22,102 nucleotides of DNA from a virus. Location: IMG/VR virus record IMGVR_UViG_3300032296_003914, positions 1-22,102 of that record; one strand, written 5' to 3'. A program made the position numbers and the translations under genes. Shown in pieces: positions 4,321 to 21,260 of the stretch (positions within the stretch are counted from its first letter, which is position 1; each line of letters opens with the position of its first letter). The notes under the pieces were generated by a model. That model was not told where the DNA came from. It made no database searches and saw only the letters and a program-made list of their open reading frames with translations.

Positions 4321-4330
4321 ACATTTTTTG

Positions 4331-4403
4331 AGGTGGATACAAGATTCGAACTTGTGCATAAAGCTTTTGCAGAGCCTTGCCTTACCACCTTGGCTAATCC
4401 ACC
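4331..4403 (-). tRNA. tRNA-Cys (GCA)
   Basis: A complete cloverleaf of 73 nt on the minus strand: acceptor GGTGGAT/ATCCACC, a three-pair D stem GCC/GGC with GG in the loop, anticodon stem AGGCT/AGCTT (one G-U), loop CTGCAAA giving anticodon GCA, and T arm ACAAG-TTCGAAT-CTTGT. The discriminator base is U, the known identity base of bacterial tRNA-Cys, which supports the call. No CCA is encoded. It is three bases downstream of the long-arm tRNA, so both are probably cut from one leftward transcript, and it ends 10 bases before the secreted-protein start. Confidence 0.93.
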
Positions 4404-15008: not shown

Positions 15009-15034
15009 AAGACCCTGAATGACAGGGTCTTTTT
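15009..15034 (+). terminator. Intrinsic terminator of the structured RNA island
   Basis: AAGACCCTG-AATGA-CAGGGTCTT (9 pairs) followed by a T run. There is no CDS between this hairpin and the tRNA-like element 200 bases upstream, so it ends an RNA gene or an untranslated mRNA tail. Confidence 0.9.
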
Positions 15035-15084
15035 CAAAATTAAATTGTGAATCATTAATTATCTATAACAAAAAAAAATGTATC

Positions 15085-16098
15085 ATGAGTACAAATCAAA
15101 CCGCTGGATTCCAAGTTTTAATCCCTGAACAAGCCATTCAAGAAAGAGTGGACAAACTCGTGGCGTATAAACTGCGTCATGAAAAATTGCATAACATACT
15201 AGGTGATGTTATTGGCAAACAAAGACTTGAAATTGTCGAAGACCTGAAAAAACATTGTGTTGAAACTGTAACAGATGATTTTCTTTCTGTTAAAGAGAGA
15301 ATCATTAATTCCTATTTGGAAAGCAAGAGAACACAAATTATTTTGAAAGGTGAACTTAGGGCGGATGTTCAAGATCCTACAGCCCATAAAGAATTACCAA
15401 AGTTAATTACTTTCTTAAATCTGTTTAATCAAGCAATGATTGTAGGTCCTACAGGATCAGGTAAATCAACACTTGCTAAACAGGCTGCAAAAGCAATGAA
15501 CTTGCGGTATTCTTCATTTTCCTGTAATATGGAAGCAAGCAAGTCAGAACTTGTAGGTTTTGCTAATCTTAATGGTTATGTAAACTCACAGTTTCTTGAT
15601 TTCTATGAGAATGGCGGTGTATTTCTTATAGATGAGTATGACGCAATGAGTCCTTCTATTGCTGTTGTGCTTAATGCTGTATTTGACCGCACTGGACAAA
15701 TTTCTGTACCTAACAGAACACAAAATCCTATTGCTAAAAAGAATAAGAATTTTTATTGTATTCTTGCCGGCAATACTTGGGGTTCTGGTTCTGTAGAGTA
15801 TCAGGGTAGAGAAATGCAAGATATGGCATTCCTTGACAGGTTCAAATTGTGCAGAATTATGGTAGATTATGATGAGAACATCGAGAGATCTATTGCTGGT
15901 GAACATTATGACTGGTTTGTTAAAATCAGAAATTTTGTCAACAATAATCTTGAGAATGAGAAGTTTTCAACAAGGTCTATTCATGATGCTGCTACTCTTT
16001 TAGCTAATGATATTAGCAAAGAAGATGTGCTGAACATGATATCTGTTCACTGGGATGAAGCCTTACAGGACAAATTTCGGACAAGAGTTGGTTATTGA
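15085..16098 (+). CDS. AAA+ ATPase, MoxR/CobS-like
   Basis: 337 residues from MSTNQTAGFQVLIPEQAIQE; an in-frame ATG at 15019 lies inside the preceding terminator and is rejected. Walker A GPTGSGKST (121-129), Walker B GGVFLIDEYD (177-186), sensor 1 Asn in CILAGNTWG (N230), and an arginine-finger region LDRFK (R252). The N-terminal ~110 residues are helical and charged. The ATPase resembles CobS/MoxR proteins, which act as remodelling machines usually paired with a VWA-type protein. The next gene fits that partner role. In phages this pair is found in several groups and its target is unknown. Terminators before and after make this pair a two-step unit. Confidence 0.85.
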   Translation: MSTNQTAGFQVLIPEQAIQERVDKLVAYKLRHEKLHNILGDVIGKQRLEIVEDLKKHCVETVTDDFLSVKERIINSYLESKRTQIILKGELRADVQDPTAHKELPKLITFLNLFNQAMIVGPTGSGKSTLAKQAAKAMNLRYSSFSCNMEASKSELVGFANLNGYVNSQFLDFYENGGVFLIDEYDAMSPSIAVVLNAVFDRTGQISVPNRTQNPIAKKNKNFYCILAGNTWGSGSVEYQGREMQDMAFLDRFKLCRIMVDYDENIERSIAGEHYDWFVKIRNFVNNNLENEKFSTRSIHDAATLLANDISKEDVLNMISVHWDEALQDKFRTRVGY

Positions 16099-16107
16099 TT
16101 CACATAC

Positions 16108-16133
16108 GGGGAGAGAGCAATCTTTCCCCTTTT
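16108..16133 (+). terminator. Hairpin terminator between the ATPase and its partner gene
   Basis: GGGGAGAG-AGCAAT-CTTTCCCC (8 pairs, one G-T) followed by TTTT. Because the partner gene starts 13 bases later, the stem may attenuate rather than end transcription, setting the ratio of ATPase to partner. Confidence 0.75.
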
Positions 16134-16145
16134 AAAAAATGTAAA

Positions 16146-16994
16146 ATGAAAAGATTTATCAACAACGATACCTATAACATCATTTACGAAAATTTAAAAG
16201 AGTTTTTTGATAACACCGATCCTAAAAATCCTTCTCCTGAAATGAATCGTGACAATCAAAATAATCATAGAGAAATGGAAGGTGATAGAAGTTGGCGTTA
16301 TGGTGATGAGGAAACAAAAGCTAAGTTTTATGATGTAAGATTTGATGCTGCTAAAGGTAAAAAACTTTGTGAACAAGATGTTAAATCTACAATGGCGGAT
16401 AAAAAGTATAAAAAACTTCTGCAGCAAGCCCTCACTTATCGTAAAAGAATAAAGTTTGAAGATTCTGGTTTTAGACTAAATGTTCCTAAAGCTATTTCTG
16501 GAGAAGATAAATATTTTGGTGTTTTCAAAAACTCAAAAAGACCAATAGTTAAGATTGCAATTAACATATGTGGTTCAGCCTGTGTTGATCAAAATGAGTT
16601 TAGAAAAGTTGCAAGAACAGCAATACCCACTATTTACGCTCTTGAAACTGCTGGTATTTCTACAGAGGTTTATTATATTGCAGCAGCAAAAGATACACAT
16701 CCTGATGCAGCTCGTTATACTGTTACTCATGTAAAAATTAAATCAGCAAAGGAAAGATTTAACTGGACTACATTTGCACCGGTGTTTTGTTTGGGTTCAT
16801 ATCGCGAGAGTATATTCATGTCATGGATTAATTCAGAACATGAAGTTTCTAGCGGTTTAGGACGTCCTATGGAAAATAGAGAGATTGCAGATAAAAATAA
16901 CTTTGGTTATACTTCTGTAATTGGTCTTAATGGAGCCGGTCCAATAAATGTAGTAAACGAGATATTTTCTAAAATTCAAAAAAAGGAGTGTTAA
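16146..16994 (+). CDS. Probable VWA-like partner of the MoxR/CobS-like ATPase
   Basis: 282 residues from MKRFINNDTYNIIYENLKEF. An N-terminal charged region (about 1-100) has the helix MADKKYKKLLQQALTYRKRI. The C-terminal half has alternating strands: PIVKIAINICGSACVDQNEF, TAGISTEVYYIAA, YTVTHVKIKSAKERFNWTTFAPVF, SIFMSWINS and NFGYTSVIGL, which look like a von Willebrand A-type alpha/beta domain, as in CobT. The classical MIDAS motif DxSxS is replaced by NICGSAC, with only serine and cysteine visible, so metal binding is uncertain. Role inferred: adaptor that tells the AAA+ ATPase what to remodel. The stop codon lies inside the terminator hairpin. Confidence 0.68.
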   Translation: MKRFINNDTYNIIYENLKEFFDNTDPKNPSPEMNRDNQNNHREMEGDRSWRYGDEETKAKFYDVRFDAAKGKKLCEQDVKSTMADKKYKKLLQQALTYRKRIKFEDSGFRLNVPKAISGEDKYFGVFKNSKRPIVKIAINICGSACVDQNEFRKVARTAIPTIYALETAGISTEVYYIAAAKDTHPDAARYTVTHVKIKSAKERFNWTTFAPVFCLGSYRESIFMSWINSEHEVSSGLGRPMENREIADKNNFGYTSVIGLNGAGPINVVNEIFSKIQKKEC

Positions 16995-20599: not shown

Positions 20600-20702
20600 A
20601 TTATTGTTAGCACTAATTATTTTTCTATCAATTCAAAACATTAAAAAAATAGTTTTGGTTAGTAAGTTGGTCGAAAAATGAAGGGGTTAGTGTTAACAAT
20701 GT
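20600..20702 (+). promoter_or_regulatory. AT-rich leader with possible promoter for the tRNA-like/tmRNA unit
   Basis: About 100 bases between the HNH-like stop and the tRNA-like element. TAGTTTTG (20650-20657) matches the -7 consensus TAnnTTTG, but the sequence 19 bases further upstream (TATCA) does not fit TTTG or TTG. No ORF is supported here. A start near 20665 would place the first RNA gene about 40 bases downstream. Confidence 0.35.
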
Positions 20703-20771
20703 AGTTAGGTGGCGTATTGGAGACGCAACTGATCAAAAGGGAGATAGTAGGTTCGATTCCTATCCTAGCTA
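20703..20771 (+). tRNA. Aberrant tRNA-like element, Leu(CAA)-like but without a foldable anticodon arm
   Basis: 69 nt: acceptor AGTTAGG/CCTAGCT (extendable to nine pairs with GT/AC outside), U8-G9, D arm GCGT-ATTGGAG-ACGC, T arm GTAGG-TTCGATT-CCTAT, discriminator A. The D-arm to anticodon region (TGGCGTATTGGAGACGC then AACTGATCAAAA) resembles bacterial tRNA-Leu(CAA), but the 3' half of the anticodon stem and the long variable arm are missing: the next bases GGGAGATA cannot pair with ACTGA. It is therefore a truncated or mimic tRNA rather than a normal one. It ends five bases before the tmRNA, so it may act as a processing signal for the tmRNA precursor. Confidence 0.65.
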
Positions 20772-20776
20772 CTAAT

Positions 20777-21203
20777 GGGGGTGCCAAGGATTTGACAGCA
20801 AATCAAAGGTGTATACACATGCAGAGGTAAGGGTCTATTCCTCTATAATCAATGATTCAATCTTTAAGCGACAACACAAACGTTGAGCTTTCCAATTACA
20901 CTGTTGAGTCTCTGCTTGCAGAGCTTGAGTGTTCTGAGCTTGAATTAGCTTAATTGGTGGAGCAGCTATGCTTAGCAACAGAAAATAGCAAGTTCGTTGT
21001 AGTCTCAGTATTACAACTCTAGTTTTCCTGGTTTCATTAAAATCAGGTGGTGGAGCAACTGGGCTTTAGTACCCATACGGTGCAGACATTATCGTACCAG
21101 TTTATGTATCATGCATAAAGCGAACATTGTCAGTACTAAGCATGTGAGACGTTGTATGCATTGTTTGTTTGTTTGGACAGGGGTTCGATTCCCCTCACCT
21201 CCA
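20777..21203 (+). ncRNA. ssrA: tmRNA (transfer-messenger RNA), phage-encoded
   Basis: 427 nt. The 5' end GGGGGTG pairs with CACCTCC at the 3' end (7 pairs, one G-U); the 5' strand continues CCAAGGATTTGACAGC, matching the tmRNA consensus GGATTCGAC; the 3' end carries TTTGGACAGGGGTTCGATT, i.e. the T arm AGGGG-TTCGATT-CCCCT and discriminator A. Upstream of it is AAGCATGT, also typical of Bacteroidota tmRNA. The tag frame is visible at about 20867-20953: SDNTNVELSNYTVESLLAEL, ending CSELELA then TAA; about 27-29 residues against roughly 8-15 in most bacteria. A Ribosome stuck on a broken mRNA would be released and its product tagged. No CCA is encoded. Strong terminator follows. Tag length and resume codon are inferred. 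Confidence 0.88.
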
Positions 21204-21230
21204 CTTAGGTGTTTTTCATAGGTTAGCAAC

Positions 21231-21260
21231 ATCCTAATGTTTCTACATTGGGATTTTTTA
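21231..21260 (+). terminator. Intrinsic terminator of the tmRNA unit
   Basis: ATCCTAATGT-TTCT-ACATTGGGAT (10 pairs, one T-G) followed by TTTTT. It lies 28 bases after the tmRNA 3' end. A weaker CACCT/AGGTG stem that overlaps the tmRNA end precedes it. Confidence 0.9.

Follow-up and report, generated by a model that had tools for sequence, protein, structure and literature searches.

The ssrA tag is generally assumed to be a short degron. Why, then, does a virus carry a tmRNA gene of its own, and what would be the fate of proteins bearing the 27-residue tag, ending in ELELA, that its reading frame encodes? The gene lies in a 22,102-base IMG/VR virus fragment (the whole of which is here called the window) that also encodes TerL, a portal protein, a PhoH-like protein, an exonuclease and an HNH protein. 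A preliminary description of this DNA had called tmRNA normally a host gene; the gene is indeed phage-borne here, but that statement understates the known phage tmRNAs, which were present in 402 of 18,146 phage genomes in 2021 (PMC9004378) and are known in mycobacteriophages and phage G (PMC4131195). We assign a probability of roughly three in four to the reading that the locus encodes a working phage tmRNA, which would support trans-translation with host factors and add a phage-specific tag of two parts, exchanged between phages as a cassette.

A complete tmRNA gene in a phage genome

ARAGORN placed a one-piece tmRNA (ssrA) on the plus strand at 20777-21204 of the window, correcting by one base the 3′ end previously put at 21203. 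The Infernal search with Rfam RF00023 that had been proposed as a check matched 20777-21206 over the full model (1-374), with 87.9 bits (E 3.3e-33) against a gathering score of 47. The acceptor 5′ strand GGGGGUG, read directly from the sequence at 20777-20783(+), pairs with 21196-21202 in the 3′ strand (CACCUCC plus the discriminator A, 21196-21204(+), with CCA not encoded). Within it, G at 20779 faces U at 21200, forming G3:U70, the alanine identity pair, and the third G and its facing T are also visible in aligned relatives. The T arm of the tRNA-like domain (21179-21195(+)) is supported by the Rfam match and by the aligned relatives, and the GGATTTGAC signature was found as well, and the acceptor pairing, signature and T arm on which the earlier identification had been based are all borne out. 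In 27 relatives, compensatory changes were seen in 15 of the 24 P1, P2 and T-arm pairs, and 633 of 645 cells were paired; these alignments and matches establish a conserved tmRNA gene with its fold and frame. The window's Rfam score of 88 bits is below those of Bacteroidota tmRNAs (109-155 bits), and the pseudoknot region 3′ of the tag fits the Rfam model poorly, with a 71-nt stretch unaligned, so that the internal fold of this region is not established. A predicted fold of the whole RNA was set aside because it showed the P2 helix inconsistently. An intrinsic terminator-like hairpin with a T tract follows the tmRNA at 21231-21254(+) (consensus match only), and a single-strand promoter scan with sigma-70 patterns, which are unsuited to Bacteroidota, gave nothing convincing.

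Three bases 5′ of the tmRNA, at 20701-20773, is a tRNA-like element with acceptor, D and T arms and no normal anticodon arm, which matched RF00005 with 34.2 bits on a short stretch and was missed by ARAGORN. Its counterpart has the same form in the viral contig L385, is longer with an odd insert in L084, and is an ordinary-looking tRNA in L388.

In TerL-linked records, coordinates show the tmRNA and TerL oriented divergently and some 11-17 kb apart, an arrangement which indicates that it is an old resident of these genomes. Its distribution is patchy, several records of more than 100 kb having no match. TerL matched 132 records; among named phages the matches were to crAss-like, Flavobacterium, Cellulophaga and Bacteroides phages at low identity, the best among the matches listed being about 25% identical to crAss-like phages. 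In GenBank phages, only 49-base matches to the tmRNA region were found, in cyanophage S-CAM1, and tblastn with the tags of types B and C found nothing there. Elsewhere in the window, 15019-16994 encodes a MoxR/CobS-like AAA ATPase (phrog_249) followed by a phrog_1909 protein, for whose gene (16095-16994) a pattern search returned just one relative.

The tag frame and its resume codon

The tag frame occupies 20870-20953(+), opening at the resume codon GAC (20870), which is preceded by the frame-setting pentanucleotide UAAGC (20865-20869(+)), and closing with TAA at 20953. The E. coli frame depends on A86, which lies four bases 5′ of the resume codon in UAGUC/GCA (PMC2481249); the window's UAAGC/GAC fits this rule, having U at position -5 and A at -4. 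When relatives were aligned on the resume codon, their contexts (UAAAC/GGC, UAAAG/GAC, UAAAC/GCT and others) kept the A at -4. These contexts imply that the tag starts with D and comprises the 27 encoded residues DNTNVELSNYTVESLLAELECSELELA, or 28 counting the alanine from charging. The earlier estimate of 27-29 residues thus holds, and the placement of the resume codon refutes a short, ordinary tag. In L088, ARAGORN started the tag five codons late; the aligned start yields DNNTVELSEYTIDSLLAELSGAELELA, also of 27 residues. A short alternative tag read from an upstream UA pair (NDSIFKRQHKR) was rejected because, by reading, it is not kept in L084 (NDSIFKRHI). The phage also encodes a tRNA-Cys (gca) at 4330-4403(-) of the window, which could read the Cys codon TGT in the tag.

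Codon comparisons indicate constraint on the peptide that the tag frame encodes. Among type A (VELS) tags, synonymous and non-synonymous differences numbered 107/90 in the tag frame and 41/152 and 10/171 in the other two, and for the part of the type B tail outside the search pattern they numbered 279/314 against 95/512 and 15/579; the sequence pairs are non-independent, and these counts are descriptions rather than tests. Variable columns of type A fell at codon positions 1, 2 and 3 in numbers of 9, 2 and 13.

Families of long tags in related phages

A TerL search yielded 518 related stretches, of which 80 were taken, and Rfam was run on 49 TerL-linked records, 7 of which held tmRNAs. All seven carry one of two long tags, VELS (G004, G008, G017 and G018) or RVAEGEAILASIF...AxAA, called RVAEG (G007, G016 and G029); the G008 tmRNA scores below the gathering threshold, and an eighth tmRNA, in G042, came from a tmRNA pattern and not from TerL. 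Pattern scans of viral contigs added more tags, bringing the VELS peptides to 12 distinct ones of 26-28 residues, the window's and 11 others in viral contigs. Because most VELS and RVAEG members were retrieved with patterns built from tags, the amino-acid conservation of these sets is partly selected for; only the seven cases that Rfam found and the synonymous signal in codons not covered by the patterns escape this bias.

The ten VELS tags of 27 residues share D1, N2, V5, E6, L7, S8, T11, S14, L15, A17, E23 and A27, giving a conserved body DNxxVELSxYTxESLxAEL, and the final residue is always A. Nine of the 12 VELS tags end in ELELA or ELEVA and one, that of L386, in ELALA, so the preliminary description was right to call the ELELA end non-canonical, and relatives conserve it. 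The remaining two, DNTTVELSDMTFDSLMAFIGADEAIAA (L090 and L389) and that of L387, have the same head and end in EAIAA. RVAEG tags have 26-27 residues and end in AVAA, AIAA or ALAA. A third tag type, VELSTMTFEDAMAFVGADYAVAA, occurs in other viral contigs, and the resemblance of the two EAIAA-ending VELS tags to it suggests AxAA as the ancestral end and ELELA as the derived one, a polarity read from sequence likeness. The tag body was also considered as an amphipathic helix and this was rejected, its hydrophobic moment being no higher than that of shuffled tags. A regular-expression scan covering about 240 kb of two large relatives turned up no further tag-like peptide.

Long tags may be widespread among phages, since in the viral contigs L095-L213, a sample picked by the tmRNA 3′ end that is neither random nor curated, about one third of one-piece tags have at least 20 residues, in several unrelated families (e.g. 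ANAQIEANMNKVFSLLGEEVAVAA and AVELSTMTFEDAMAFVGADYAVAA), with almost none in Bacteroidota. The tmRNA of another viral contig (L083, 5709-6081) has a 30-residue tag, GNTKENTQVQANMSKVYSLISSVEEVAVAA.

Bacterial tags and host genomes

Tags of the likely hosts are about one third as long as the window's. In a bacterial sample of 104 tmRNAs, nearly all from Bacteroidota, 85 tags have 9 residues, which supports the earlier claim that the phage tag is far longer, and the single call above 16 residues is an implausible ARAGORN call. Bacteroidota tags mostly end in AA, with G-x-x-x-[YF]-A-[LM]-A-A as the typical form. The type A (VELS) pattern had no match in a genome collection of 84,980 species, those of types B and C had none in 395 genomes of the Bacteroidota phylum, and a tblastn-like tag search of 398 genomes of one order gave chance-level matches only; the same tag was found in none of the bacterial genomes searched. 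Neither an SmpB gene (19 phage records) nor a ClpP gene (18 phage records) was found, which implies that rescue relies on host SmpB, AlaRS and EF-Tu, and any degradation on host proteases.

Exchange of the tag on a conserved scaffold

Comparison of the window and L084 tmRNAs gives identities of 98% for nt 1-93, 37% for the tag body (nt 106-177) and 99% for nt 361-428; these two records are alike in their flanks too, but their tags are unrelated. Against L217, the same three segments of the window give 45-65%, 97% and 75%, the likeness starting near the resume codon and dropping just past the stop. In a tree of the scaffold (5′ and 3′ parts), the window, L084 and L388 form one starred clade inside RVAEG scaffolds, and the other starred clade holds the remaining ten VELS tags and two RVAEG tags; the starred branches force at least three changes of tag type. 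The region from the tag to the tRNA-like domain (TLD) is also mosaic. As judged from these comparisons, related phages have exchanged the tag as a whole, on an otherwise unchanged RNA. The exchange probably reflects fit to different hosts' proteolysis or escape from recognition, and it suggests that the phages decide what becomes of unfinished proteins in infected cells.

Discussion

We infer from the sequence comparisons that the phage tmRNA is expressed, charged and used for tagging, and that its ELELA end may alter protease choice. The tRNA-like domain, with its G3:U70 pair, would be charged with alanine by host AlaRS, and host EF-Tu and SmpB would deliver the RNA to ribosomes stalled on broken mRNAs, where translation would resume at GAC (20870), add 27 residues after the alanine and stop at TAA. 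The tag would have two parts, a conserved body and a C-terminal end read by proteases. The body most probably contacts a particular protein, in the way that extended Mycoplasma tags engage Lon, and the end would tune or switch the protease. For multipartite contacts of an extended tag, the review PMC9382460 cites Ge and Karzai (2009). With ELELA in place of AxAA in the window's subtype, tagged chains would probably be handled unlike host-tagged ones, by another protease or at a slower rate. In the mycobacteriophage Wildcat, tmRNA is the most highly expressed lytic gene (PMC7474061).

The window tag, ending in ELELA, lacks both the canonical ssrA degron end (LAA or a similar AxAA) and the Lon-type NYAFA motif of Mollicutes. 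The preliminary description had proposed that tagged proteins might meet a fate other than ClpXP degradation. ClpX usually recognizes a C-terminal AA (PMC9382460), and the EAIAA ends on the same body, together with the AxAA ends of the other tag type, keep ClpXP degradation likely for the clade; the window's ELELA variant may be a degron that is either weakened or switched. An ordinary degradation tag that has drifted long, with the tmRNA topping up host rescue, chains passing to host ClpXP, and length and ELELA being tolerated noise, would fit the AIAA, AVAA and ALAA ends of same-locus relatives, the constant terminal alanine and the wide occurrence of phage tmRNAs (PMC9004378). Drift, however, predicts neither a protein-constrained body of nearly fixed length (26-28 residues) nor the retention of ELE[LV]A in nine distinct tags, with ELALA in a tenth, and we consider it rather unlikely. 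By analogy with Mollicutes, a longer tag with a new end could instead make chains substrates of Lon or a different host protease, or leave them stable, which we rate slightly above drift and still well short of even odds. Bacteroidota hosts keep ClpXP and have no obvious need of such a switch, and the phage tags show no NYAFA-like end, but the AA end has probably been lost within VELS (from EAIAA to ELALA, ELEVA or ELELA) in parallel to Mollicutes, whose long tags end in NYAFA and are read by Lon (PMC9382460), and the 25-residue mycobacteriophage tag ends in AALV.

An RNA that merely titrates SmpB and blocks host trans-translation, as is thought for the TLD-only RNA of DS6A, has a precedent in the inhibition of tmRNA by such RNAs (PMC4131195) and a possible companion in the anticodon-less element directly upstream, but a decoy needs no reading frame, and the conservation of tag frame, stop and resume context makes it improbable. 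Least credible is recent capture or misbinning of a host tmRNA: tmRNA genes are common integration sites (PMC11915505), yet TerL and portal genes share the contig, the spacing and divergent orientation relative to TerL recur in TerL-linked records, and no bacterial genome searched holds the tag. A bolder extension of the working-tmRNA reading, which we offer only tentatively and regard as doubtful, is that a small repertoire of cassettes (VELS, RVAEG) recombines into conserved scaffolds, the tag being a host-interaction module under its own selection, and that rescued chains bearing the ELELA subtype are no longer handled by ClpXP and are either passed to another protease or spared.

What emerges is a lineage of abundant freshwater viruses in which tags 26-28 residues long are retained, their conserved body occurring in no bacterial genome searched, and are exchanged as cassettes. 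This makes testable why phages bring their own tmRNA and whether the tag decides the fate of broken phage and host proteins, and it provides natural tags with which to probe protease specificity in Bacteroidota. Phage tmRNAs and a 25-residue mycobacteriophage tag are already known; in the open-access literature we found no report of long conserved tag families in this clade, of tag exchange as a cassette or of graded loss of the AA end.

Among known systems, the one-piece Bacteroidota tmRNA (RF00023) shares with the phage RNA the G3:U70 tRNA-like domain, the P2 helix, the resume-codon context and a stop-closed frame, but its tags mostly have 9 residues and the window's has 27 and ends in ELELA. 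Melnitz-like marine phages likewise carry a complete tmRNA and show no sign of integration, although theirs is two-piece, riboswitch-associated and acquired from Alphaproteobacteria (PMC9004378). The DS6A RNA is also a phage-borne tRNA-like domain of tmRNA but is without a reading frame (PMC4131195). The Lon-read Mollicutes tag resembles the window's in being longer than the E. coli tag and altered at its C-terminus (PMC9382460), but it is bacterial, ends in NYAFA and belongs to organisms without ClpXP. The Bxz1-type mycobacteriophage tmRNA, represented here by Momo (KR080196), whose tag we read as ATDTDATVTDAEIEAFFAEEAAALV (25 residues, ending in AALV), is phage-borne too and has a long acidic tag that does not end in AA; its phage, host and tag sequence are unrelated to those of the window, and it lies inside a large tRNA cluster.
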